From assembly GCF_003002815.1 (NCBI RefSeq), contig NZ_PVTF01000003.1, forward strand, positions 124,001-188,000: DNA of 64,000 nucleotides, in the 5' to 3' direction. The notes below the pieces were generated by a model. That model was not told the DNA's origin and searched no databases. It saw nothing but the letters and a program-made list of their open reading frames with translations. The stretch's first letter is position 1; every line of letters starts with the position of its first letter. Shown piece after piece: positions 15,630-56,932 of the stretch. Made by a program: the position numbers and the translations under genes. Source of the stretch: Umezawaea tangerina. Lineage in GTDB: Bacteria; Actinomycetota; Actinomycetes; Mycobacteriales; Pseudonocardiaceae.

Positions 15630-17195
15630 ATGTGCAGCATGGATCCCTCCGCTCAGTCCGCACCGAAGCCGCCTCGCCTCGCCGCGCCGGTCGCGGCGCT
15701 CATCGGTGTGCTGGCGGTGGCCATCGCCCTCGCCGCCGGGCACCTCGTCGCCGGGTTCGTCGGCCCGTCGGCCTCCCCGTTCCTGGCCGTCGGCAACACC
15801 GCCATCGACCTCACCCCGCTCCAGCTGAAGGACTTCGCGGTCCGGACGTTCGGCACCTACGACAAGCTCGTGCTGCTCGGCGGCATGGGCCTGGTGCTGC
15901 TCGGGGCCGCGGTGGTGGCGGGGCTGCTGTCGCGGCGCAGCCCGCTGCCGGGGTCGATCATGGCCGGGGCGCTGGGGCTGCTGGGGGTGGCCGCCGTGCT
16001 CGCGCGGCCGGACTCCGGGCAGCTGAGCGTGCTGGCGCCGATCGCCAGCCTGGTGGCCGGGATCGCGGTGTTCCGCTGGCTGCACAGCAGGGCGCTGGTC
16101 CGGCGCGGTGACGCCTCGCCCGAGGGCAGGCGGACGTTCCTGGTCGCGCTCGGCGCGACGGCCGTCGGCGCCGGTGTGGCCGGTGTGCTCGGCCAGGTCC
16201 TGGGCAACCGGATCGACGTCGAGGGGTCGCGCAGCGCGATCGGGGAGATCAAGCCGACCACCCCGGCGGCGCCGATCCCGGCGGGCGCGGACTTCGCGAA
16301 CCAGGGGACGCCGAGCTTCATCACGCCGAACGCCGACTTCTACCGCGTCGACACCGCGCTGAGCGTGCCGCGGCTGCGCGCGGAGGACTGGAAGCTGCGG
16401 ATCCACGGCATGGTCGACCGCGAGATGACCCTGAGCTACGACGACCTGCGCTCGCGCGACCTGGTGGAGCGCACGATCACCATGACCTGCGTCTCCAACG
16501 AGGTCGGCGGGCCGTACGTGTCGACGTCGAACTTCACCGGTGTGCTGCTGCGCGACGTGCTGATGGAGGCGGGTGTGAAGTCCGGCGCGGACCAGCTGTT
16601 CGGCACCAGCTCCGACGGGTGGACCGCGGGCAGCCCGGTGGACGTGGTGATGGAGGCCGAGCGGGGCGCGCTGCTCGCGCTCGGCATGAACGGCGAGCCG
16701 CTGCCGGTGGAGCACGGGTTCCCGGTGCGGATGGTCGTGCCCGGTCTGTACGGGTACATCTCGGCCACCAAGTGGCTCGTCGACCTGGAGCTGACCACGT
16801 TCGACGCCAAGCAGTCGTACTGGATCGACCGCGGCTGGGGCAGGCTCGGCCCGATCAAGACCATGTCCCGGATCGACTCCCCGAAGGGCCTGAGCCGGGT
16901 CCGCAGCAGTGGGAAGACGACCGTGTCGGGGGTCGCGTGGGCCCAACCGACCGGCATCGCGAAGGTCGAGGTCCGGACCGACGGCGGGCCGTGGCAGGAC
17001 GCGACGCTGGCCGCGGACGTCGGCAACAGCACGTGGCGGATGTGGAAGGTCGAGCTGGACCTGGCGGCGGGCGGTCACACGGTCGAGTGCCGGGCCACCG
17101 ACAAATCGGGATTCGTGCAGCCCCAGGCGCGGGTGGCACCCATCCCGGACGGTGCCACGGGATGGCATTCCGCCTTCTTCACGGTAGAAAAATAA
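15630..17195 (+). CDS. membrane-anchored molybdopterin-dependent oxidoreductase (sulfite-oxidase fold)
   Basis: About 521 residues from ATG 15630 (ATG 15639 is also possible). The N-terminal third has about four hydrophobic helices (AAPVAALIGVLAVAIALAAGHLVAG, LVLLGGMGLVLLGAAVVAGLL and others) and then a transmembrane RRTFLVALGATAVGAGVAG-like segment. The exported domain has the oxidoreductase molybdopterin motif MTCVSNEVGGPYVST, where Cys should ligate Mo, followed by a Mo-co dimerisation-like C-terminus. The electron acceptor and substrate are unknown. It is followed by a fasciclin lipoprotein, a pairing seen in other actinobacteria. Confidence 0.88.
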   Translation: MCSMDPSAQSAPKPPRLAAPVAALIGVLAVAIALAAGHLVAGFVGPSASPFLAVGNTAIDLTPLQLKDFAVRTFGTYDKLVLLGGMGLVLLGAAVVAGLLSRRSPLPGSIMAGALGLLGVAAVLARPDSGQLSVLAPIASLVAGIAVFRWLHSRALVRRGDASPEGRRTFLVALGATAVGAGVAGVLGQVLGNRIDVEGSRSAIGEIKPTTPAAPIPAGADFANQGTPSFITPNADFYRVDTALSVPRLRAEDWKLRIHGMVDREMTLSYDDLRSRDLVERTITMTCVSNEVGGPYVSTSNFTGVLLRDVLMEAGVKSGADQLFGTSSDGWTAGSPVDVVMEAERGALLALGMNGEPLPVEHGFPVRMVVPGLYGYISATKWLVDLELTTFDAKQSYWIDRGWGRLGPIKTMSRIDSPKGLSRVRSSGKTTVSGVAWAQPTGIAKVEVRTDGGPWQDATLAADVGNSTWRMWKVELDLAAGGHTVECRATDKSGFVQPQARVAPIPDGATGWHSAFFTVEK

Positions 17196-28190: not shown

Positions 28191-28531
28191 CCGCACCAGC
28201 GTTGGACTCCGAGGCCGTCCCGGCACCGAGGCTGCACCAGCCGAGGCGGGGGCTGGTCGCCGCGGCCGAGGTCGTGGTCGCCGTGCTGCTCGGCCTGGCC
28301 GCGACCTGGTGCTGGTCGCGCGGCATCCAGGAGTTCTCCTACCCGCTCGACGGCCGCCCGCCGCTGGTGTCCACGCGCTACCACGGCAACTGGGTCGCGT
28401 TCGCGATCGCTCTGGTCACCGCGGGCGGCATCCTGCTGCTCGACGCCGTCCGGCAGACCGTCCTGGCCGTCCGCACGCGGGCGCCGAAGCCCGTGCAGGA
28501 CGTGGCGCAGGCCACTGACGAGCACGTGTGA
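28187..28531 (+). CDS. small two-helix membrane protein
   Basis: A 114-residue protein starting at GTG 28187, overlapping the upstream stop. Two membrane helices: [22 protein letters not shown] and [20 protein letters not shown]. The loop between them contains [20 protein letters not shown]. No family recognised. It lies immediately before hemL and is likely co-transcribed. Confidence 0.7.
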
Positions 28532-28542
28532 GACTGGAGCGC

Positions 28543-29859
28543 GTGACAGCGAGGAACACGGCAACGGACACCACCCGATCGCAGGAGCTGTTCGCGCGAG
28601 CGGCCACCGTGACACCCGGCGGGGTCAACTCCCCGGTGCGGGCCTTCCACTCGGTCGGCGGCACACCGAGGTTCATGGTCCGCGGCGAGGGCCCGCACCT
28701 GTGGGACGCCGACGGCAACCGCTACGTCGACCTGGTGTCCTCCTGGGGCCCGATGATCCTGGGCCACGCGCACCCCGAGGTGGTCGACGCGGTCCGCTCG
28801 GCCGCCACCCACGGCCTCTCGTTCGGCACCCCGACCGAGGGTGAGATCGAGCTGGCCGAGGAGATCATCGGCCGGGTCGCGCCGGTGGAGCAGGTGCGCC
28901 TGGTCAACTCCGGCACCGAGGCCACGATGAGCGCCATCCGGCTCGCCCGCGGGTTCACCGAGCGCCGCAAGGTCGTCAAGTTCGCGGGCTGCTACCACGG
29001 CCACGTCGACGCGCTGCTCGCCCAGGCGGGCTCCGGCGTCGCGACCCTCGGCCTGCCCACGTCGCCGGGCGTGACCGGCGCGCAGGCCGCGGACACCATC
29101 GTGCTGCCCTACAACGACGTCGAGGCCGTGCGGGCCGCGTTCGCGGAGAACGCGGGCGAGATCGCCTGCGTGATCACCGAGGCCGCCGCGGGCAACATGG
29201 GCGCCGTCGCGCCCCGCCCCGGCTTCAACGCCGCGCTGCGCGACCTGTGCCACGCCGACGGCGCGCTGCTGGTCGTGGACGAGGTCATGACCGGCTTCCG
29301 GGTCTCCGGCGCCGGGTGGTACGGCCTGGAGGGCGTCGCGGGCGACCTCTACACGTTCGGCAAGGTCATGTCCGGCGGCCTGCCCGCCGCGGCGTTCGGC
29401 GGCCGCGCCGACGTGATGGCGCGGCTGGCCCCGTCCGGCCCGGTCTACCAGGCGGGCACGCTCTCCGGGAACCCGGTCGCGGTCGCCTCCGGCCTGGCCA
29501 CCCTGCGCGCGGCCGACGACGCCGTCTACCGCGCGCTCGACGCGAACGCCACCCGCCTCGGCGCCCTGTTCGCCGACGCCCTCACCGCGGCGGGCGTCGA
29601 GCACCGCGTGCAGTTCGCGGGCAACCTGGTCAGCGTGTTCTTCACCGCTGACGAGGTCGTCGACTACGCGGGCGCCCAGGCCGCGCAGACCTGGCGCTTC
29701 CCGCCGTTCTTCCACGCCCTGCTGGAACGCGGCGTCTACGCGCCGCCGAGCGCCTTCGAGGCGTGGTTCGTCAACGCCGCCATGGGCGACGACGAGTTCT
29801 CGATCATCGCCGACGCCCTGCCGCACGCGGCAGCGGCCGCCAAGGAGGCCAAGAAGTGA
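28543..29859 (+). CDS. hemL: glutamate-1-semialdehyde 2,1-aminomutase
   Basis: A 438-residue PLP enzyme converting glutamate-1-semialdehyde to 5-aminolevulinate. GTG 28543 is preferred to GTG 28528 as it gives the usual N-terminus ([24 protein letters not shown]) and has GGAG upstream. The PLP lysine is about residue 274 in [29 protein letters not shown] carries the PLP Asp. It completes the C5 route begun by HemA. Confidence 0.96.
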
Positions 29860-30485
29860 CTCGGACCGTGGTGCACTTCCTCAGGCACGGCGAGGTGCAC
29901 AACCCCGACGGCATCCTCTACGGGCGGCTGCCCGGCTTCCGGCTGTCGGACACCGGCCAGCGCCAGGCGCTGACCGTCGCCGAGCACCTCGCCGACCACG
30001 ACATCGCGCACGTCGTCGCGTCCCCGCTGACCCGCGCGCAGCAGACCGCCGCGCCGATCGCGGACTCGCACCGGCTGGAGCTCGCCACCGACGACCGGCT
30101 CATCGAGGCGGACAACAAGTTCGAAGGCCTCCGGGTCGCGGTCGGCGACGGCGCCCTGCGCTCACCCGCCCACTGGCCCAAGCTCGTCAACCCGTTCACG
30201 CCGTCCTGGGGCGAGCCGTACCTCGTCATCGCCCACCGCATGCTCGGAGCCGCCCAGCGCGCCCGTGCGCTGGCCGAAGGGCACGAGGCGGTGTGCGTGT
30301 CCCACCAGCTGCCGATCTGGACGCTGCGGCGGTTCCTGGAGGGCAAGCGCATGTGGCACGACCCGCGCAAGCGCGAGTGCTCACTGGCGTCCCTGACGTC
30401 GTTGATCTTCGAGGACGAGAAGCTCGTGCGGGTCTCCTACAGCGAGCCGGTGGGAGCGACGAACCCGAGGATGACCGGGGCATGA
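29856..30485 (+). CDS. histidine phosphatase family protein
   Basis: A 209-residue phosphoglycerate-mutase-like protein starting at GTG 29856, with AAGGAGG at 29842-29848. The phosphohistidine motif is [12 protein letters not shown] (RHGE), with [10 protein letters not shown] and [16 protein letters not shown] providing the second Arg and His. The substrate is unknown. The gene is conserved between hemL and the thioredoxin gene (Rv0525-like). Confidence 0.92.
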
Positions 30486-31054
30486 GAGCCGTTCTCCTGC
30501 TGGCGCTCGCGCTCGTGGCGGGCGGCTGCTCGGCCGGGAAGGACGCGGTCGCCGTCGGCGGCGAGTTCCAGTTCGTCGCGCCCGGCGGGCAGGTCCGGCT
30601 GCGGTACTCCGGCGACGAGCGCAAGGTCGTGAAAGGCCTGTCCGGCCCCAGCCTCCTGGAGGACGGCAAGACGGTGGCGCTGGACGACTTCGCGGGGAAG
30701 GTCGTGGTCGTCAACATCTGGGGCTCCTGGTGCCCGCCCTGCCGCACCGAGGCACCGGAGATGCAGAAGGTCCAGGACGAGACGGGACCCAGCGGGGTGC
30801 AGGTGCTGGGGATCGACGTGAAGGAGCACTCACCGGAACCGGCACGGGACTTCGCGGTGGACCGCGAGCTGACGTACCCGTCGATCTTCGACGACTCGGG
30901 GAGGACGTTGCTGGCGTTCAAGGGATACCCGCCGAACGCTGTGCCGTCGACGATCGTGCTGGACAAGGGGCATCGGGTGGCGGCGATCTTCTTGGAGGGG
31001 GTGCTGGCGTCGGATTTGTTGCCGGTGGTGAAGGAGTTGGTGGGGGAGGGGTAG
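30482..31054 (+). CDS. TlpA/ResA-like thioredoxin lipoprotein
   Basis: A 190-residue protein with a signal peptide ending in the lipobox VAGGCSAG, so it is probably anchored outside the membrane. The thioredoxin site is WGSWCPPCRTEAP (Cys 84 and 87), with GIDVKEHSPEPARDFAVD and NAVPSTIVLDKGHRV giving the ResA/TlpA insert and cis-Pro. It probably keeps apocytochrome c cysteines reduced, with electrons from CcdA at 32683. The hairpin array and M64 peptidase separate it from the rest of the cytochrome genes. Confidence 0.92.
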   Translation: MRAVLLLALALVAGGCSAGKDAVAVGGEFQFVAPGGQVRLRYSGDERKVVKGLSGPSLLEDGKTVALDDFAGKVVVVNIWGSWCPPCRTEAPEMQKVQDETGPSGVQVLGIDVKEHSPEPARDFAVDRELTYPSIFDDSGRTLLAFKGYPPNAVPSTIVLDKGHRVAAIFLEGVLASDLLPVVKELVGEG

Positions 31055-31187
31055 GGGGCGTTGGTGTAGAGCCCGGCTCTCTCATCCCTGGTGAGCCCTG
31101 GCCCCCGGCCCTCTCACCCTGCGAGTCTGGCTCTCGGCCCTCCCACCCTCTGGCGAAGCCCGGCCCCCGGCGCGCGATTGTCTCAAT

Positions 31188-31240
31188 GCTTGATCTTGCT
31201 TGTCAAGACGGTGAAGCTGTCTTGACAAGCAAGATCAAGC
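31188..31240. repeat. 22-base perfect inverted repeat (stem-loop)
   Basis: The arm 31188-31209 (starting GCTTGATCTTGC) is exactly complementary to 31219-31240 (ending GCAAGATCAAGC) around a 9-base loop. Its composition is about 45 percent GC, unlike the surroundings. It could terminate transcription from either side, but it has no flanking U-tract. Confidence 0.88.
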
Positions 31241-31275
31241 AGGAGGGCGCTGTGGATCGGGGGCAGAGGGGAAGT

Positions 31276-31475
31276 CTGGCTTCGCCAGCATCGAGCTCCG
31301 CTCGACTCAAGCATCCTCGCTGCGCGTCGGACCAGGCATCGGACTCCGTCCGACAAAGCATCCTCGGCTTCGCCGTCGGACCAGGCATCGGCTGGCGCCG
31401 ACAAGGCCCCAGGCGCTCCGCGCCGGATGCGCGCTGGCGAGCTTCGCTCAACTGCGTGTTGTGCTCGCTGCGCGT
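31276..31475. repeat. array of small hairpins with repeated flanks
   Basis: Hairpins: CTGGC/GCCAG (31276-31288), TCGAGC/GCTCGA (31291-31305), CGC/GCG (31318-31326), TCGGAC/GTCCGA (31339-31353), CGGC/GCCG (31365-31375), TCGGC/GCCGA (31388-31401), GGCGC/GCGCC (31412-31424), GAGC/GCTC (31439-31449) and CGC/GCG (31466-31474). Most loops are TTC, TCC or TGC. The blocks AAGCATCCTCG and GTCGGACCAGGCATCGG repeat at 31309/31356 and 31326/31375 while the stem sequences between them differ. A REP-like or structured-RNA element is inferred. Confidence 0.7.
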
Positions 31476-31517
31476 CGGAGTTCCTTGTCTCCCTCTTGCT
31501 TGCTGCTTCTTTTCCTC

Positions 31518-32513
31518 TTAGTTCTGCAGTTCTGGGATCTTTCGCTTGAAGGCTTCGATCATGGCGTCGCGGCCTACGAGGCTGTACTGCTTGCCGAGGG
31601 TGCGCATGATCGAGTTCTCGGTGGGGCGGTAGAGGCCGGTGCCGTAGTACTTCGAGCCTTCGTAGACGCCGACGACGCCGCCGTCGGGGGTGGGTTGGCC
31701 GAGGTACTTGGACCACTTGGAGCCGTCGGAGAGCTTGGAGGCGTTGATTTCGGCGGGTTCGGTGCCGGTGTAGGTGCCGGGGGAGAAGTACTCGTCGGCG
31801 AGGCCGCCGATGGAGTGGCCGAGTTCGTGGACGACGATTTGGCCGGCTTGGGCGTTGCCGCCCGCGGCGGTGGCGACGCCGCCGCCCGCGCCGCCGTACT
31901 TGGTGGTGTTGCCGAGGGCGATGACCTGGTCGGCGGCGGGGGCGAGGGCGGCGAAGTTGTAGGCCTCCTCCTCGTTGACGCAGAGCAGGCGTTCGGTGGT
32001 CGGGGTGGTGCCCTTGCACCAGAAGCCCATGTCGAGGGCGGTGCGCTTGTCGTCGTTGCCCTGGGGGTTGTCGTCCACGCCGGAGTCGACGGAGACGGCG
32101 TTGACCTGCCAGACGTTGAAGTAGTCCTTGTAGGACGCGAACGGCTCGATGGACGACAGCTCGGCCCACTTGCTCAGGACGTGCTGGTGGAACAGGTCCT
32201 GCTCGGTCCTGGTGTACCCGTCGCCGACGAAGACCAGGTCGAAGCGCTGGTCGGTGGGGCCGGTGTTCTGGATGGTGACCACGGTCGTGCGGGCGCGGGC
32301 GGAGGTCTTGCTGCGCGGCTGGACCGTGGCGGTGGGGGCGGGTGCGACGATCTTGGAGATCGTGCCGTCGGGGGAGAAGACCTCGCGGACGACGGTGGAG
32401 GAGGTCGGCGCGGGGACCGCGACCGATGCCGGTGCGGCGGTGGTCGGCAGCGGCGCGACGACAACCACGAAGCCCACCGCGAGTGCGGGCAAGATCAGCC
32501 GAGTTGAGCGCAT
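31518..32513 (-). CDS. secreted M64 family metallopeptidase
   Basis: A 331-residue protein with a signal peptide (STRLILPALAVGFVVVVAPLPTTAAPA). The zinc motif HELGHSIGGLADEYF has His229, Glu230, His233 and a following G-L-x-D, as in the peptidase M64 (IgA-peptidase-like) family. FDLVFVGDGYT near residue 91 is the typical domain start. Four Cys are few for a secreted protein; LLCVNEEEAYN and GFWCKG are likely a disulfide pair. The target protein is unknown. It breaks the usual tlpA-ccdA adjacency and reads against it. Confidence 0.9.
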   Translation of the reverse strand: MRSTRLILPALAVGFVVVVAPLPTTAAPASVAVPAPTSSTVVREVFSPDGTISKIVAPAPTATVQPRSKTSARARTTVVTIQNTGPTDQRFDLVFVGDGYTRTEQDLFHQHVLSKWAELSSIEPFASYKDYFNVWQVNAVSVDSGVDDNPQGNDDKRTALDMGFWCKGTTPTTERLLCVNEEEAYNFAALAPAADQVIALGNTTKYGGAGGGVATAAGGNAQAGQIVVHELGHSIGGLADEYFSPGTYTGTEPAEINASKLSDGSKWSKYLGQPTPDGGVVGVYEGSKYYGTGLYRPTENSIMRTLGKQYSLVGRDAMIEAFKRKIPELQN

Positions 32514-32682
32514 GGAGGAACGTTAGGTACCCCAGTTGTCACCCACAAGGGTGCTTTAGCGTCTATTTCACATTTGCGATCACGGTTTGTCATACCTCCA
32601 TGTCGCGAACGGGTGTGACCCAGGCCGCTGCTAATGGGCTCCGGTGGCCGCCGTGTCAAGAGGGGTACCTACTCTGGTCGGC

Positions 32683-33462
32683 GTGAACCACTGGACGGAG
32701 CTGGCCACCTCTGGCCCGCTGCTGCTGGCCACCGGTGTCGCCGTTCTTGCGGGGGCGATCTCGTTCGCCTCGCCGTGCGTGGTCCCGCTCGTCCCCGGCT
32801 ACCTCGCCTACCTCGCCGGACTGGTCGGTGCGGAGGCCCCGGCCGTGCAGGACGGGGAGTCGCCGAAGGCGGGGCGCTGGCGGGTGACCGGTGCGGCGAT
32901 GCTGTTCGTCCTCGGGTTCACCGTCGTGTTCTCGCTGACGTCGTTCGCCGTGCTCGGCCTGGTCGACACGCTCTGGCTCAACGAGGACGTGTTCCAGCGC
33001 GTCGGCGGTGTCATCACGATCGCGATGGGCCTGGTGTTCATCGGGCTGGTGCCCGCGCTGCAGCGCGACGTCCGGCTGCACAGGCGCCCGCGTGCCGGTC
33101 TGATCGGCGCACCGCTCCTCGGCGGCGTGTTCGCGCTCGGCTGGACCCCGTGCATCGGCCCGACGCTGGCCGGGGTGCTCGCGCTGGCCCGCGGCACGGA
33201 GGTCGGCTCGTCCACGGCCCGCGGCGCGGTGCTGGTGCTGGCCTACTGCCTCGGCCTCGGCCTGCCGTTCGTGCTGATCGCGGTCGGCGCCCGTTGGGCG
33301 GTCCGGGTCACCGGCTGGCTGCGCACCCACGTGCGCGGCGTCCAGATCTTCGGCGGCGCGCTGCTGATCGTGGTCGGGCTCGCGCTCGTCACGGGCCTGT
33401 GGGGCGACTTCGTGGGCTGGCTGCGCATCGCCGTGGTCAACGACCTGAAGCTGCCGCTCTAG
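32683..33462 (+). CDS. ccdA: cytochrome c biogenesis protein CcdA
   Basis: A 259-residue six-helix membrane protein carrying electrons from cytoplasmic thioredoxin to the ResA/TlpA-type protein. GTG 32683 is chosen because the N-terminus then reads NHWTELATSGPLLLATGVAVLAG, as in mycobacterial CcdA; GTG 32644 would add 13 residues. The redox Cys pair is in SFASPCVVPLVPGYL and LGWTPCIGPTLAGVLAL. resB starts at the base after the stop codon. Confidence 0.93.
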   Translation: MNHWTELATSGPLLLATGVAVLAGAISFASPCVVPLVPGYLAYLAGLVGAEAPAVQDGESPKAGRWRVTGAAMLFVLGFTVVFSLTSFAVLGLVDTLWLNEDVFQRVGGVITIAMGLVFIGLVPALQRDVRLHRRPRAGLIGAPLLGGVFALGWTPCIGPTLAGVLALARGTEVGSSTARGAVLVLAYCLGLGLPFVLIAVGARWAVRVTGWLRTHVRGVQIFGGALLIVVGLALVTGLWGDFVGWLRIAVVNDLKLPL

Positions 33463-35013
33463 ATGCGCGACGCACTCGCCTTCCTGCGCAACACCTGGCG
33501 CGGCCTCACGGCCATGCGCACGGCGCTGACGCTGCTGTTCCTGCTGGCGCTCGGCGCGCTGCCCGGAGCCCTGCTGCCGCAGCGGGCCCTGAACGCGGCG
33601 AAGGTCGACGAGTACATCGCCGAGCACGGCTGGTGGGGGCGGCTGCTCGACAAGGGCCAGTTCTTCGCCGTCTACGGCAGCTTCTGGTTCTCGGCGATCT
33701 ACGTGCTGCTGTTCGTGTCGCTGGTCGGCTGCCTGCTGCCGCGGCTGTGGGAGTACTTCACGCAGATGCGGGCGAAGCCCGTGCTGACCCCGCGCAACCT
33801 GTCCCGGATGCCGCACCACGCCGACGCGCACGTCGACCGGGACGTCGCCGAGGTCATGGCGGCGGCCCGCACGAGGCTGCGCGGCTGGCGGCTGGTCGAG
33901 CGCGAGGAGCCGGGCGGTGCCCGCACGATCAGCGCCGAGCGCGGGTTCCTCCGCGAGACCGGCAACCTCGTCTTCCACTTCGCGCTGCTCGGCCTGCTGG
34001 TGGCGTTCGCGCTGGGCAAGATGTTCGGCTACGAGGGCCAGGTCATCGTGCAGGCCACCGGCAAGCAGTACTGCAACTCCGGCGTCTTCAACTTCGACTC
34101 GTTCCGGCCGGGCCTGCGGGTGGACGGCACCCGGCTCACCCCGTTCTGCGTGCGGGTCAACGACTTCCACGCGTCCTACCTGCACAACGGGCAGGCGCAG
34201 AGCTTCCAGGCGGGCATCGACTACCAGTCGGGCGCGGACCTCGACACGGGCACGTGGCGGCCGTACTCGCTGGAGGTCAACCACCCGCTGCGCACCGAGG
34301 GCGACCGGCTCTACCTGCTCGGCCACGGCTACACGCCCAAGTTCACCGTGACGTTCCCCAACGGCGCCACCCGCTCCGCCGAGGTGCAGTGGCGCCCGGT
34401 CGACCCGATCACGCTGCTGTCCGAGGGCGCGACGAAGTTCGACCCGCCGCAGGTCACCGACTCCGAGGAGCGGCGCAAGAACCAGCTCGCGATCACCGGG
34501 CTGCTGGCGCCGAGCGCGGTGTTCGACGGCACGCTGATGAGCTCGAACTTCCCGGAGGCGCGCAAGCCCGCCGTGGCCGTGGACGTGTTCCGCGGCGACC
34601 TGGGCACCGACTCCGGGCGCGGCCAGTCGATCTTCTCGATCGACCGGTCCATGGTGGACAACGGGCGGCTCAAGAAGGTCGCCAGGGAGAACCTCGAGGT
34701 CGGCCAGTCCGTGACCCTCGACGACGGCACGGTGATCCGCTTCGACGGGGTCACCGACTGGGTGTCGCTGCAGGTGTCGCACGACCCGACCCAGGTGTAC
34801 GTGCTGGTGTTCTCGATGCTGATCGTGGCCGGTCTCGGCGCCTCGCTGGCCATCAGGCGGCGTCGGGTGTGGGTGCGGGCGGTCCCCCGACAGGACGGGC
34901 GTACTTTCATCGAGGTCGGCGGGCTCGCGCGCACCGACCAGGCGGGCTACGGCGGGGAGTTCACCGGGCTGTCCCGCGACCTGCTCACGGGTGGCCAGGA
35001 CAAGGAGAGCTGA
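33463..35013 (+). CDS. resB: cytochrome c biogenesis protein ResB (CcsB-type heme-handling subunit)
   Basis: A 516-residue membrane protein of system II cytochrome c maturation. The first helices (MRTALTLLFLLALGALPGALLPQ, FWFSAIYVLLFVSLVGCLLPR) and FHFALLGLLVAFALGK precede a large extracytoplasmic domain of about 300 residues; a final helix (VYVLVFSMLIVAGLGASLAI) ends it. With CcsB it moves heme outward and ligates it to apocytochrome CxxCH motifs. ccsB overlaps its stop by one base. Confidence 0.94.
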   Translation: MRDALAFLRNTWRGLTAMRTALTLLFLLALGALPGALLPQRALNAAKVDEYIAEHGWWGRLLDKGQFFAVYGSFWFSAIYVLLFVSLVGCLLPRLWEYFTQMRAKPVLTPRNLSRMPHHADAHVDRDVAEVMAAARTRLRGWRLVEREEPGGARTISAERGFLRETGNLVFHFALLGLLVAFALGKMFGYEGQVIVQATGKQYCNSGVFNFDSFRPGLRVDGTRLTPFCVRVNDFHASYLHNGQAQSFQAGIDYQSGADLDTGTWRPYSLEVNHPLRTEGDRLYLLGHGYTPKFTVTFPNGATRSAEVQWRPVDPITLLSEGATKFDPPQVTDSEERRKNQLAITGLLAPSAVFDGTLMSSNFPEARKPAVAVDVFRGDLGTDSGRGQSIFSIDRSMVDNGRLKKVARENLEVGQSVTLDDGTVIRFDGVTDWVSLQVSHDPTQVYVLVFSMLIVAGLGASLAIRRRRVWVRAVPRQDGRTFIEVGGLARTDQAGYGGEFTGLSRDLLTGGQDKES

Positions 35014-35975
35014 TGCCGGTCAACGCGACGCTGGCGACCTACGGCGACTGGCTGTACAACAGCGCGGTCGGCGTCTACATCCTCGCCACGTTCCTCTACC
35101 TCTACGAGCAGGCCTTCGGGCGCGCGCCCGCCAAGGCGAAGGAACGCGAGCTGGTCGTCGCGGGCGGGACGGGCGAGCAGTGGAAGCCCGGCCTGGTCGT
35201 GCCGAAGAAGCCAGAACGCCCGCGCGCGGAGCGGTTCGGCCGCATGGCCGTGGCGCTGACGCTGCTGGGCGTGCTGTTCCACGTGAGCGCGCTGGTCCTG
35301 CGCGGGGTCGCGACCGGGCGCGCGCCGTGGGGCAACATGTACGAGTACGGCGCGCTGCTCACGCTGGCGGCCGTGGCGACGTTCCTCGTGCTGATGCGGT
35401 CGTTCCCGGTCCGCAGGCTCGGCGGGTTCGTGCTCACGCCGGTCGTCATCCTGATGTTCCTCGGCGGCACCGCCCTCTACGCGCCCGCCGCGCCCGTGCA
35501 GCCCGCGCTCCAGTCGTACTGGCTGGTCATCCACGTCTCGGTCATCTCGATCTCCACCGGCATGCTGCTGGTGCCGGGCGTCGCGAGCCTGCTCTACCTG
35601 GTGAAGTCGACCAACGACGCCAAGCCCGAGCGCTTCGCCCGGTTCGCGGGCAGGCTGCCCGCCGCGGACACCCTCGACCGGCTCGCCTACCGCAGCACCG
35701 TGCTGGCGTTCCCGCTGTTCACGATCGGGATCATGTTCGGCGCCATCTGGGCCGAGGCCGCGTGGGGCCGGTTCTGGGGCTGGGACCCCAAGGAGACCGT
35801 CGCCTTCGTCTCGTGGGTCGTCTACGCGGCCTACCTGCACGCCCGCGCCACCGCGGGCTGGCGCGGCGCCCGTGCCGCGTGGGTCAACGCGCTCGGCTTC
35901 TTGCTGACCGTGTTCAACCTCTTCTTCATCAACTTGGTGACGGCCGGGTTGCATTCCTATGCGGGAGTGGGCTGA
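35013..35975 (+). CDS. ccsB: c-type cytochrome biogenesis protein CcsB (CcsA/ResC, heme lyase)
   Basis: A 320-residue multi-helix membrane protein. The tryptophan-rich WWD-type heme motif is AEAAWGRFWGWDPKETVAFVSW; conserved His residues lie in LFHVSALVLRG and YWLVIHVSVISIS. An N-terminal helix and a charged loop (KAKERELVVAGG) precede the core. Together with ResB it forms the system II synthetase. It ends the ccdA-resB-ccsB set; a 122-base gap then leads to the ParA-like gene. Confidence 0.95.
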   Translation: MPVNATLATYGDWLYNSAVGVYILATFLYLYEQAFGRAPAKAKERELVVAGGTGEQWKPGLVVPKKPERPRAERFGRMAVALTLLGVLFHVSALVLRGVATGRAPWGNMYEYGALLTLAAVATFLVLMRSFPVRRLGGFVLTPVVILMFLGGTALYAPAAPVQPALQSYWLVIHVSVISISTGMLLVPGVASLLYLVKSTNDAKPERFARFAGRLPAADTLDRLAYRSTVLAFPLFTIGIMFGAIWAEAAWGRFWGWDPKETVAFVSWVVYAAYLHARATAGWRGARAAWVNALGFLLTVFNLFFINLVTAGLHSYAGVG

Positions 35976-38719: not shown

Positions 38720-38983
38720 GTGCACCTGGGACGCGATGTGACGCTCTACGTACTGGCACGACTCGGCATGGTGGCCGCCACCACGGCCCTCCTCATGCTC
38801 GTCCACGTCCCCCTGCTCGTCGCACTCGCCGTCGGCATCGTCGTCGCCCTACCCCTGTCGCTGTTCGTGTTCAAGGGGATGCGCACCCGCGTGGCCGAAG
38901 GCCTCAACCACCGCGCCGCTCTCCGCCGCACCGAACGCGACCGCCTCCGCGCCCAACTCCGCGGCGAATCTCCCGCCGTCTGA
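38720..38983 (+). CDS. DUF4229 small membrane protein
   Basis: An 87-residue protein starting at GTG 38720, 11 bases after the AsnC-type gene. Two hydrophobic segments (TLYVLARLGMVAATTALLMLVHVPLLVALAVGIVVALPLSLFVFKGM) precede a basic tail (RTRVAEGLNHRAALRRTERDRLRAQL). This matches actinobacterial DUF4229 proteins found in the same neighbourhood. Function unknown. Confidence 0.85.
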   Translation: MHLGRDVTLYVLARLGMVAATTALLMLVHVPLLVALAVGIVVALPLSLFVFKGMRTRVAEGLNHRAALRRTERDRLRAQLRGESPAV

Positions 38984-39210
38984 CACTTGCGGGTCCCGCG
39001 CCCGGACACCCTTGCCTGGGTGCCAGGGCTCGCCGAGTTCGTCGCACTGCGTCGATTAGTGCGCCCTTGCGAGAACATTGTTCTTGCCACTTCCTCGCGA
39101 CAACTCTTCGGAATCCATTTTTTGCGGTTTGCTGGCCACCCTCATTCCTCTTTCCGGGTGAACTTCGCCCCGCTTTCGCGGAATCGACCGCCGCGTCGCC
39201 CCTAAGGGGC
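38984..39210. other. AT-richer gap before the sigma/OmpA cassette
   Basis: This 227-base gap has markedly lower GC than its surroundings (for example TCGGAATCCATTTTTTGCGG near 39110). No reliable gene was recognised. GCCCC (39198-39202) and GGGGC (39206-39210) form a 3-base-loop hairpin ending just before ATG 39211, which would hide the only ribosome-site-like sequence, AAGGGG. Confidence 0.5.
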
Positions 39211-43374: not shown

Positions 43375-44247
43375 TCAGCTCAGCATCAGGGTGCCGCCGA
43401 CGGCGACCGCCCACAGCAGCATCGCCAGGCCGGTGTCGCGCAGCACCGGGATCAGCTGCAACCCCGTCTTGCCCTGCACGACCCGCCGCGCGCCCAGCGC
43501 CGCCAGCGGCAGCGCGAGCAGACCCAGCAGCGCCAGCGGCACCCGGACGCCGATCACCAGCGTGATCAGGAACGGCGCCACCACCAGCGCCAGGTACAGC
43601 CTGCGGGTGTCCTTGTCGCCGAGCAGCACCGCGAGCGTCCGCTTGCCCGCCTGCGTGTCCGTGGGGATGTCCCGCAGGTTGTTCGCCACCAGCACCGCCG
43701 TCGAGAAGCACCCGACCGCCACCGCCGCCCCGATGCCGATGCCGGTCACCTCGCCGGTCTGCACGAACAGCGTCCCCAGCACCCCCATGGGCCCGAAGAA
43801 CAGGAACACGGCGACCTCGCCGAACCCCGAGTACCCGTACGGCTTCGACCCACCGGTGTAGAACCACGCGCCCGCGATGCACAGCACCCCGAACGCCAGC
43901 AGCCACCAGTACCCCGACATCGCGATCAGCACCAGCCCGGCCACCGCCGCCACGCCGAACGCCGCGAACGCCGCGTTCCGCACCGCCGTCGGATCAGCCG
44001 CCCCCGACCCCACCAGCCGGAACGGCCCGACCCGGTTGTCGTCCGTCCCCCGGATCCCGTCGGAGTAGTCGTTCGCGAAGTTCACCCCCACCTGCAACGC
44101 GACCGACACCAGCAGCGCGAGCAACGCCATCGGCAGCGAGAACCCGTCGATGTTCTGCGCCGCGCCCGCGCCCACCAGCACGGGGGCGATCGAGTTGGGC
44201 AGCGTACGAGGACGCGTGCCCTCGACCCACTGGGTGACTGTGGCCAT
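43375..44247 (-). CDS. menA: 1,4-dihydroxy-2-naphthoate polyprenyltransferase
   Basis: A 290-residue UbiA-family membrane enzyme that prenylates dihydroxynaphthoate to demethylmenaquinol. ATG 44247 is chosen because ATVTQWVEGTRPRTLPNSIAPVLVGAG matches the mycobacterial N-terminus; ATG 44256 would add 3 residues. The Asp-rich prenyl diphosphate motif is VNFANDYSDGIRGTDDNRVGP, and the second is NLRDIPTDTQAGKRTLAVLLGD. Eight or nine helices. Equivalent to Rv0534c. Confidence 0.96.
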   Translation of the reverse strand: MATVTQWVEGTRPRTLPNSIAPVLVGAGAAQNIDGFSLPMALLALLVSVALQVGVNFANDYSDGIRGTDDNRVGPFRLVGSGAADPTAVRNAAFAAFGVAAVAGLVLIAMSGYWWLLAFGVLCIAGAWFYTGGSKPYGYSGFGEVAVFLFFGPMGVLGTLFVQTGEVTGIGIGAAVAVGCFSTAVLVANNLRDIPTDTQAGKRTLAVLLGDKDTRRLYLALVVAPFLITLVIGVRVPLALLGLLALPLAALGARRVVQGKTGLQLIPVLRDTGLAMLLWAVAVGGTLMLS

Positions 44248-53898: not shown

Positions 53899-53904
53899 CC
53901 GGGA

Positions 53905-55137
53905 CTAGCGCCCTTCCAGCGCGTCCCGCATCGGCCGCATCTTCGCGTGCGCCTCGCAGACCTCGCTGTCCGGATCCGACTCCGCCACCAGCCCGCAGCC
54001 CGCGAACAGCCGCGCCGCGCGCCCGTCCAGCTGCGCGCACCGCAGCGCGATCCCCAGCTCCCCGTCCCCGTTCCCGTCGATCCACCCGACCGGCCCGGCG
54101 TAGCGCCCGCGGTCCATGCCCTCCAGCTCGTCGATGACCGCGATGGCCTCGGCGCGGGGCGTCCCCCCGACCGCGGCCGTCGGGTGCAGCGCCTCGCCGA
54201 GCCGCAGCAGCGACGGCGACCCCCGCAGCGTCCCGATCACGTCGCTCGACAGGTGCGACACGTTGGGCAGCCGCAGCACCGACGGACCGTCCACGGACAT
54301 CGTGGTGCAGAACGGCTTCAACGTGTCGGCCAGCGACCGGATCGCGTAGTCGTGCTCCTCGAGGTTCTTCGGCGACGACAGCAGCGCCGCCTCCAGCTCC
54401 TCGTCCGACATCCCGTCGTGCGGCCACGTCGTCCCCGCGAGCACCCGCGAGTCCACGACCTGGCCGGTCCGCCGCAGCAGCAGCTCCGGGGTGGCGCCGA
54501 GCAGCCCGTCGACCGCGTACACCCAGCAGTCCGGGTACCGCCTGGCCAGCCCCTCCAGCACGAACCGCTGGTCGATCGGCACGTCGGCGACCGCCAGCAG
54601 GTCGTGGGCGAGCACCACCTTGTCCAGCTTCCCCTCGCGCATCCGCGCCACGGCCGCCGCCACCGCGCCGCGGAAGTCCGTCACCGACAGCTGCCCGTCG
54701 GCGTAGCGGACCGTGGACGGGCGGCGGATCGGGGTGATCTCGGCCTCCTCGCCCGCGCCGCCGACCGTGGTGACCCAGCTCTGCCCACCGCGCCTGCCGA
54801 GCACGACCTCGGGCACCACCAGCACGGAGTGGCCGGGCTCGTCGGAGAACGCCATGCTCACGAACGCGACCGGGCCGGTGCCGGGGGCGTCGACGTCGTC
54901 CTGGACGTCGAGCGAGGCGGTGAACTCCTCCCACCACCGCTCGGTGTCGGCGAAGCGGTTCGGACCGGACGCCTCGAACCGCGCTGCCTCACCCCAGCCG
55001 ACCAGGCCCGATCCGTCCCGGACCCAGGCGAGCGCGCTGTCCGGGCTCGGCAGTCGGCCGAGCAGGTCCTCGTTCCGCGCACGCCCGGTGTGGACGCGCA
55101 GACGTTGTCGGGTCCGCGACGCAGGTGCAGAGGTCAC
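53905..55137 (-). CDS. menF: isochorismate synthase
   Basis: A 410-residue chorismate-binding enzyme converting chorismate to isochorismate for menaquinone or siderophores. GTG 55137 is the best start, since codons upstream overlap the divergent promoter. Conserved parts: LDKVVLAHDLLAVADV, GATPELLLRRTG, RVLAGTTWP, SPKNLEEHDYAIRSLADTLKPFC, LSSDVIGTL, LHPTAAVGGTPRAEAIAVIDELEGMDRGRYAGPVGWID and FAGCGLVAESDP. No siderophore genes are nearby, and menD is 5 kb away, favouring a menaquinone role. Confidence 0.92.
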   Translation of the reverse strand: MTSAPASRTRQRLRVHTGRARNEDLLGRLPSPDSALAWVRDGSGLVGWGEAARFEASGPNRFADTERWWEEFTASLDVQDDVDAPGTGPVAFVSMAFSDEPGHSVLVVPEVVLGRRGGQSWVTTVGGAGEEAEITPIRRPSTVRYADGQLSVTDFRGAVAAAVARMREGKLDKVVLAHDLLAVADVPIDQRFVLEGLARRYPDCWVYAVDGLLGATPELLLRRTGQVVDSRVLAGTTWPHDGMSDEELEAALLSSPKNLEEHDYAIRSLADTLKPFCTTMSVDGPSVLRLPNVSHLSSDVIGTLRGSPSLLRLGEALHPTAAVGGTPRAEAIAVIDELEGMDRGRYAGPVGWIDGNGDGELGIALRCAQLDGRAARLFAGCGLVAESDPDSEVCEAHAKMRPMRDALEGR

Positions 55138-55709: not shown

Positions 55710-56651
55710 ATGGTGGATGACCTGGCGGCGCGCTTCGAGCACACGGTGGCCTCCGAGGCGCGGATCGAACCCCGCGACTGGATGCCGGACGGCTACCGCA
55801 GGACGCTGATCCGGCAGATCGCCCAGCACGCGCACTCCGAGATCATCGGGATGCAGCCGGAGGGCAACTGGATCAGCCGCGCGCCCTCGTTGCGGCGCAA
55901 GGCGATCCTGCTGGCGAAGGTGCAGGACGAGGCGGGCCACGGGCTCTACCTCTACGCCGCGACCGAGACGCTGGGCGCGGACCGGGGCGAGCTGACCGAG
56001 AAGCTGGTCGACGGCAAGCAGAAGTACTCCTCGATCTTCAACTACCCGACCCTGACGTTCGCGGACATGGGTGTGATCGGCTGGCTGGTCGACGGCGCCG
56101 CGATCTGCAACCAGGTGCCGCTGTGCCGCACCTCGTACGGCCCGTACGCGCGGGCCATGATCCGCATCTGCAAGGAGGAGTCCTTCCACCAGCGGCAGGG
56201 CTACGAACTGCTCATGACCATGATGCGCGGAACCCTGGCGCAGCGCGACATGGTGCAGGACGCCGTGAACCGGTGGTGGTGGCCGTCGCTGATGATGTTC
56301 GGGCCGCCGGACTCCGAGAGCTCCAACACCGAGCAGTCGATGGCGTGGCGGATCAAGCGCAACACCAACGACGAGCTGCGGCAGAAGTACGTGGACATGT
56401 CGGTGCCGCAGGCCGCGAAGCTCGGCGTCACGTTCCCGGACCCGCTGCTCAAGTGGAACGCCGAGCGCGGCCACCACGACTTCGGCCAGCCGGACTGGGA
56501 CGAGTTCTGGCAGGTCGTCGGCGGGCACGGGCCGTGCAACAGCCAGCGCGTCGCCCACCGCCGCAAGGCCCACGAGGACGGCGCCTGGGTGCGGGAAGCC
56601 GCCGAGGCGCACGCCGCCAAGGCCTCCGCGCGCCAGGACGGTGCGGCATGA
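55710..56651 (+). CDS. paaA: 1,2-phenylacetyl-CoA epoxidase subunit PaaA (catalytic)
   Basis: A 313-residue diiron oxygenase subunit. It epoxidises phenylacetyl-CoA with the other Paa subunits, starting aerobic phenylacetate degradation. The iron-binding motifs are [13 protein letters not shown] (E-x-x-H) and [18 protein letters not shown] (E-x-x-H). Length is typical. ATG 55710 starts the five-gene operon; paaB overlaps its end. Confidence 0.97.
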
Positions 56652-56932
56652 GCGCGTCGTGGCCGCTGTGGGAGGTCTTCGTGCGCGGCAAGCGCGGGCT
56701 CAACCACGTGCACGTCGGGTCGCTGCACGCGCCGGACGCCGAGATGGCGCTCCGCAACGCGCGGGACGTCTACACCCGCCGCAACGAGGGCGTGTCGATC
56801 TGGGTGGTGCCCGCCGAGGCGATCACCGCGTCCTCGCCGGACGAGAAGGACCCGTTCTTCGAGCCCAGCGGCGACAAGGTGTACCGGCACCCGACGTTCT
56901 ACGCCATCCCCGACGACGTGCCGCACCTGTGA
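56648..56932 (+). CDS. paaB: phenylacetyl-CoA epoxidase subunit PaaB
   Basis: A 94-residue bridging subunit starting at ATG 56648 inside the paaA stop. It begins [50 protein letters not shown], the expected PaaB sequence. It stabilises the PaaAC complex and lacks its own cofactor. Confidence 0.96.

Follow-up and report, generated by a model that had tools for sequence, protein, structure and literature searches.

REP sequences, in one description of the class (PMC8266576), carry a conserved tetranucleotide, most often GTAG, before a palindrome of 20-50 nt. The element described here resembles REP/BIME sequences with RAYT in forming dispersed intergenic hairpins and mosaics of modules in hundreds of copies, but no Y1 transposase was found for it, GTAG is missing, its larger core has hypervariable arms, and it is surrounded by a halo of mutation. 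MITEs are non-autonomous inverted-repeat transposons; they share with this element the small size, the dispersal, the presence or absence between species and the patchy distribution, whereas the hairpin core with arms that change together sets it apart from them. Strand-coordinated cytosine changes in exposed DNA characterize kataegis and antibody switch regions, where they depend on the animal deaminases APOBEC/AID. The changes described below are also strand-coordinated and include C>T and C>G, but they are bacterial, inherited and tied to a repeat. Inverted repeats in yeast make the reporter genes to either side of them mutate more, an effect that the authors credit to long single strands (PMC3681665). 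The likeness covers the inverted repeat, the mutation of flanking genes on both sides and the proposed single strands; the yeast work deals with double-strand breaks at the repeats in reporter strains (PMC3681665), whereas the changes described below fall on one and the same strand to the left and right of the repeat.

Among the papers listed by literature searches, with most subscription journals outside their scope, none was seen to describe this element or a halo on one strand around a bacterial repeat. By itself, the dispersed repeat would add one more family to those of known kinds, and it is the halo that is rated as new.

Architecture and spread of the element

The window, a stretch of 64,000 nucleotides, comes from the genome of Umezawaea tangerina (G000; 10.68 Mb, 34 contigs, 99.49% complete), which was compared with two Umezawaea congeners (G001 and G002). 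The first-pass annotation had claimed nine tiny hairpins in 31276-31480, set in recurring module flanks. All nine lie where they were placed, and two repeats within the array are exact, an 18-bp one, CGTCGGACCAGGCATCGG, at 31325 and 31374 and CTCGCTGCGCGTCGGA at 31316 and 31464. Directly upstream of the array lies a feature absent from that annotation, two perfectly complementary 23-bp arms around a 9-base loop (31187-31241). The hairpins make up the tail of a dispersed element that has no gene of its own and is located mainly at gene 3' ends. Its features in the window are as follows:

31142-31480, forward strand: whole element (framework, palindromic core and hairpin tail), about 340 bp, dispersed
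31163-31169, forward strand: left arm of the outer framework stem, GCCCCCG, pairing with 31258-31264
31258-31264, forward strand: right arm of the outer framework stem, CGGGGGC, partner of 31163-31169
31187-31209, forward strand: left arm of the palindrome, 23 bp, outer part hypervariable, inner TTGTCAAG nearly constant
31210-31218, forward strand: purine-rich 9-base loop GGTGAAGCT, which here defines the orientation of the core
31219-31241, forward strand: right arm of the palindrome, 23 bp, exact complement of the left arm
31276-31474, forward strand: tail of nine tiny hairpins, largely GCATC-hairpin-GAC modules
31276-31288, 31291-31305, 31318-31326, 31339-31353 and 31365-31375: tail stems 1 to 5
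31388-31401, 31412-31424, 31439-31449 and 31466-31474: tail stems 6 to 9

The element lies between a thioredoxin-fold gene (forward strand, to 31054; PF00578) and a convergent Peptidase_M64 gene (reverse strand, 31518-32513; PF09471). Matches of 40 copies from the same genome to the window start mostly at 31020-31155 and end mostly at 31447-31480, the exact borders being blurred by mutated flanks. By eye, the ends resemble GGCGAAGCCC versus GGGCTTCGCC, within the limits set by these borders. The orthologous sites in G002 and G001 are empty, with flanks too diverged to place an insertion junction.

A comparison of the element stretch with its own genome gave 224 candidate places; scoring and alignment covered 40 of them. 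Exact matches to the core pattern number 175 in G000, 75 in G001 and 137 in G002, while the reversed pattern, used as a control, has none. In the family, the core is present in 10 of the 297 genomes sampled, which carry between 1 and 175 copies each and represent 4 of 46 genera. The lack of a second copy, which the first-pass annotation had named as part of a refutation, is contradicted by the 175 core copies in the genome itself. Two of 394 genomes in a class-wide sample matched, the one studied here and another whose match has an unrelated loop and was taken as chance.

Close analysis was based on 57 copies (40 from G000 and 17 from G002), chosen as the best-scoring matches instead of at random from all copies. 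Two diverged copies, L069 and L074, stayed in this set; the G002 copy L146 was missed by the loop filter in one count, and the G002 copy L070 carries TTATCAAG and thus falls outside the exact core pattern. Gene context, obtained with a simple gene caller that gives approximate distances and missed the true end of the left gene in the window, was assigned to 54 copies, as three of the 57 have no called left neighbor. Oriented by the element, 29 of them have convergent neighbors, 14 have two rightward and 9 two leftward neighbors, and the neighbors of the remaining 2 are divergent.

The outer framework stem has seven positions, every one of which is paired in 56 or 57 of the 57 copies. The tail is modular: 185 of its 259 GCATC modules in these copies form a perfect stem of at least 4 bp with a loop of 3-4 bases, and the 185 draw on only ten stem sequences. 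When the 25 bases after each GCATC were shuffled (50 rounds), such stems appeared in 9.7% of modules on average and 13.9% at most, which speaks against chance low-complexity sequence, the alternative originally allowed for. As a single DNA fold, the 205-base array is unremarkable for its composition (z of -1.13; 26 of 200 shuffles at least as stable). Among the copies listed, most of those from G000 and G002 have the tail; it was not seen in the two G001 copies read (L135 and L145). The copies printed from other genera keep the framework and the hairpin, with no comparable tail of tiny hairpins visible. Long hairpins of the form AATGTGGC...GCCACATT occur near the element in several genomes of other genera (L130, L138, L141, L144 and L148).

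Paired changes in the palindrome

The two arms of the core change together. Across the 57 copies, 99.0% of 1253 cells of the core stem are paired, 194 cells are changed on both sides, and such both-sided changes affect 12 of 22 core pairs; G·U accounts for only 2 of 1240 paired cells. The covariation score of the core palindrome is 0.420 against a shuffle mean of 0.142 and is reached by 0 of 500 shuffles, which ignore the relatedness of the copies, so that this fraction should not be read as a probability. Four of five covariation measures exceed all 500 shuffles; the number of further pair types does not (81 of 500 as high). Sliding the pairing partner abolishes the signal. In the arms, the inner eight bases hardly vary, whereas the outer parts differ in length and in up to most of their positions.

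Orthologous copies show the same behavior. Among the loci fetched there are five G000/G002 pairs and one G000/G001 pair, and both arms carry paired differences in all six. In the L022/L059 pair the innermost base pair is altered on one side only, to G·U; in the L053/L072 pair the right flank aligns with an offset. Arm mismatches also occur in L069, L070, L071 and L074. L049 (1432-1600) combines two palindrome arms of different types, as if recombined between copies.

Selection on RNA normally tolerates G·U intermediates. Since these are scarce here, the pattern suggests that one arm was copied from the other at the DNA level. The earlier proposals of a repeat family and of structure kept while sequence changes are upheld, the covariation signal and the 194 doubly changed cells lying in the core palindrome, just outside the coordinates originally noted. 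A multi-hairpin RNA, another of the options then named, would fit the G·U count less well than copying between the arms.

Strand-specific composition and mutation around the copies

When the 57 copies are oriented by the element, the element's strand is C-poor and G+T-rich in the flanks. In the 40 copies from G000 the fraction of C drops from about 0.35 to 0.20 while that of G climbs from 0.36 to 0.455, and the 17 G002 copies are alike. This halo, another feature absent from the first-pass annotation, peaks beside the element; in composition it tails off within about 0.7 kb on the upstream side and reaches beyond 1 kb on the downstream side. The skew is positive on both sides in 54 of the 57 copies and exceeds 0.2 on both sides in 39. 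Element-free control sites lay more than 3 kb from any exact core and were evaluated in matched bins of 240/270 bases with skew zones left unmasked; a skew above 0.2 on both sides with one sign is reached there by a single gene end among 130, by none of 26 midpoints between convergent genes and by 10 of 1591 random sites (the latter overlapping). The same control in G001 stretches, which hold a second element type (see below), gives 1/68, 1/12 and 8/1049, respectively.

The sign of the halo is identical for copies on either contig strand and in every gene context. At the nine copies with both neighbors transcribed the other way, the left side is weaker (+0.17 adjoining, +0.03 farther) and the right side full. 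In four G000 stretches (L153-L156) the sign follows the element at all nine elements; one further skew zone without an element lies at 6000 of L156. Thus, the sign of the halo follows the element, not the genes or the contig strand, and gene transcription is disfavored as its cause. In other genera the skew 110-300 bases downstream is positive in 13/13 (G238), 10/10 (G229), 5/5 (G094) and 7/7 (G288) copies, and in G001 in 16 of 20, with four exceptions; in three genomes with one or two copies each, only two of four copies are positive just downstream.

Skew zones without a core were also noticed, in the window at 38800-39000, 43800-44000 and 44600, near the ends of G002 alignment blocks, and in a 73-kb G002 stretch (Wg2) at 35500, 53900-54500 and 56100-56900.

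Wherever lineage-specific changes were pooled over loci, a position was used only if it is aligned and two genomes agree there. The window locus is without the element in G002 and G001, where the aligned genes are 137 and 74 bases apart versus 483 in G000, and blastn gave no trace of it between them. The element-bearing lineage shows two arms of changed bases:

30800-31055, forward strand: upstream halo arm, 3' end of the thioredoxin-fold gene, lineage-specific C>N 21/78 versus G>N 2/68
31518-32513, forward strand: downstream halo arm, within the Peptidase_M64 gene (itself on the reverse strand), C>N 34/258 versus G>N 1/300, three bins summed

Most bins farther out have similar rates of C and G change. 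The excess of C changes ends about 400 bases upstream and runs for about 800-1000 bases downstream. Several hundred bases upstream, at 30001-30500 of the window, an opposite excess is seen (G changes 14/167 versus C changes 1/154).

Four loci carry the element in G000 only. Within about 700 bases of it, C>N amounts to 160/1122 versus G>N 51/1228 in G000 (p=4e-18), and at 2-4 kb the figures are 91/2568 and 84/2649. G002, which lacks the element at these loci, shows no C excess (C>N 40/1002 versus G>N 72/1249). Individually, the excess is significant at 4 of 4 loci in G000 and at 0 of 4 in G002. None of the eight gaps at these loci in G002 and G001 gave a blastn match to a degenerate copy of the element. 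The branch common to G000 and G002 already carries an excess at the four loci (in G001, G>N 175/1352 versus C>N 47/1009), and two orders of events are therefore compatible with the counts: either the element was lost from G002, or mutation began before insertion. At five loci with the element in both G000 and G002, one of which has it in G001 too, the pooled C versus G changes are 73/1143 versus 70/1725 in G000 (p=6e-3) and 123/1193 versus 88/1743 in G002 (p=9e-8), with individual significance at 0.05 at one of five loci in G000 and four of five in G002. Base changes on the same strand are thus tied to the element in the lineages that carry it.

A third repeat, with units like CACCCCGTGTCGAACGCTCAGG, occupies G002 intergenic regions where G000 has the element (the window locus, L149, and Bg2 17060-17160). 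Upstream at the window locus, beside this different, C-rich repeat, G002 has nine G>C and six G>A versus one C change, so that there the opposite strand looks mutated.

Spectrum of the changes and a second element type

In lineages with the element, its strand collects C>T and C>G changes, joined in some zones by G>T. Both kinds of C change are raised in the G000 zones, where G>T stands at 0, 0.024 and 0.004 versus 0.002, the zero belonging to the window zone and the one clear rise to the B loci. For two G001 zones of the second element type (see below), C>T climbs from 0.021 to 0.165 and 0.219 (8-10 fold over background) and G>T from 0.011 to 0.044 and 0.071 (4-6 fold), while G>A is not raised (0.005 and 0.013 versus 0.022) and A>G is mixed (0.071 and 0.016 versus 0.037). 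In the first of these zones the changed C fall mostly on third codon positions (239/425, compared with 59/227 at first and 22/239 at second positions; 39/85 outside called genes), as would be expected from damage to one exposed strand filtered by protein selection.

Two finer patterns were examined and set aside. If exposed strands fold, unpaired C should mutate more; eight of nine computable comparisons were non-significant, and the ninth (12 mutated versus 18 conserved) pointed in the opposite direction. C>T peaks where the next base is T, a preference for which codon degeneracy could by itself account, and as neighbor-base preferences are not separable from codon constraint in these counts, no deaminase motif is claimed.

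The strongest halo seen lies in G001, at a position equivalent to 14-17 kb of the window, where a single 500-base bin has C>N 98/192 versus G>N 5/151 (p=8e-25). That zone holds no exact core but another palindromic element with ends GGCCGATTTGACTTGGGG. The second type is represented by:

33484-33602 and about 28775-28895 of the G001 stretch Wg1, also loci L172-L187: palindromic element of about 115 bp, ends GGCCGATTTNACTTGGGG, with a halo of its own

It has approximately 73, 25 and 7 copies in G001, G002 and G000, respectively, and none in the other 246 of the 249 family genomes sampled; its skew test rests on three orientable copies among nine matched strings. Only some of the core-less skew zones in G001 hold this element. 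The existence of two such types leads to a broader proposition, advanced here tentatively from sequence comparison: at least two unrelated hairpin repeats in Pseudonocardiaceae may be structure-encoded mutator elements that direct strand-specific cytosine hypermutation of neighboring host genes over hundreds of bases, which would make them the inherited equivalent, in bacteria, of kataegis or antibody switch regions.

Possible origins of the halo

The halo is a computed property of the sequences, from which its cause and mechanism can be approached by inference. Its distribution suggests that the repeat makes its neighborhood mutate. The reading considered best, to which about even credence is given, is that a structure-conserved dispersed repeat recurrently leaves one strand single-stranded, and that this strand consequently mutates. 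Several results weigh against it: the excess already present on the branch common to G000 and G002, the single significant locus among the five shared ones in G000, the exceptions in G001 and in low-copy genomes, the skew zones without a core, the lack of protection of C by predicted pairing, the absence of G>T from the window zone, and neighbor-base effects that may be codon effects. Resection from a double-strand break would hit opposite strands on the left and on the right; as the same strand is affected on both sides, a gap or a displaced strand would fit better. One strand could be exposed continuously across the site by a gap in the other strand or by an R-loop, and the gap is preferred because the halo reaches upstream and its sign ignores gene direction. 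Most simply, a nick made in the opposite strand at the hairpin would grow leftward and rightward into a gap; the element's strand, exposed in this way, would suffer base damage that error-prone filling then fixes. The same events might let one hairpin arm template the other, which would produce double changes almost without G·U intermediates.

An R-loop enters a different account, in which the element encodes a structured RNA in top-strand sense: its G-rich transcript would displace the top strand, which mutates, while the structure is kept for RNA function. The affected strand would indeed be the displaced non-template strand, the unpaired framework segments and closing stems are conserved across genera, and the compensatory changes in the core support pairing. 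However, transcription would have to enter from beyond the element to explain the halo upstream of it, the sign is kept, though weaker on the left, where both neighbors are transcribed the other way, and RNA pairing would hardly leave so few G·U cells. No Rfam family was matched either: the window has no gathering-level match, and 11 loci gave only eight sub-gathering matches, seven to miRNA families and one to g2. This account is considered unlikely.

Rather than causing the halo, a MITE-like repeat might prefer zones already prone to strand-specific mutation. The excess on the ancestral branch at loci where G002 now lacks the element would agree with such a preference, as would the concentration of copies at gene 3' ends (29 of 54 convergent, 2 divergent). 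After the split of G000 and G002, however, only the element-bearing lineage shows the excess (4/4 versus 0/4 loci). Moreover, the sign agrees with the orientation of the element for all nine elements of the four stretches, gene ends without an element seldom show a zone of this kind (1/130), and the second element type has a halo too, which together leave insertion preference less probable still.

Natural selection instead of mutation could deplete C, for instance in favor of C-rich, G-poor RNA for Rho-dependent termination of leftward transcripts, and depletion of C on the top strand does yield leftward RNA of this kind. Yet 14 copies lie between two rightward genes, with no leftward neighbor, versus 9 between leftward genes; the changes span hundreds of coding bases, mostly at third positions, and G>T, which selection for G+T would not be expected to favor, is also up in two G001 zones. 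Selection of this type is regarded as improbable. Membership among REP/BIME elements mobilized by a RAYT (TnpA_REP) transposase, to which the high-copy intergenic hairpins in mosaics would point and which the first-pass annotation had raised as a REP-like family, is rejected: the Y1_Tnp profile (PF01797) has no match in the own genome, to which the search was confined (its positive control found matches in 5 of 14 known genomes), the tail hairpins follow GCATC and the core a CAATGC-type framework in place of GTAG, and the element measures about 340 bp with 23-bp core arms, so that hardly any probability remains for it.

Should the element cause the halo, the repeats would locally raise one-strand mutation of adjacent genes at up to about 175 places per genome, a number against which the 57 closely examined copies come from two genomes. 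They would then offer a natural system, with copies that can be counted, in which to study the origin and mutation of single strands in chromosomes, and might help to account for odd codon usage at gene ends. Copying from arm to arm would provide a mechanism for covariation that is normally read as selection on RNA; for RNA discovery this implies a warning, as strong covariation without G·U pairs may reflect correction at the DNA level.

At the window locus itself, the gene adjacent to the element has its closest named relative in Umezawaea endophytica (80% identity). According to Pfam, the genes at 28528-35013 include a class-III aminotransferase, the thioredoxin-fold gene, Peptidase_M64, a DsbD-like gene and ResB, a combination that suggests a cytochrome c maturation neighborhood.
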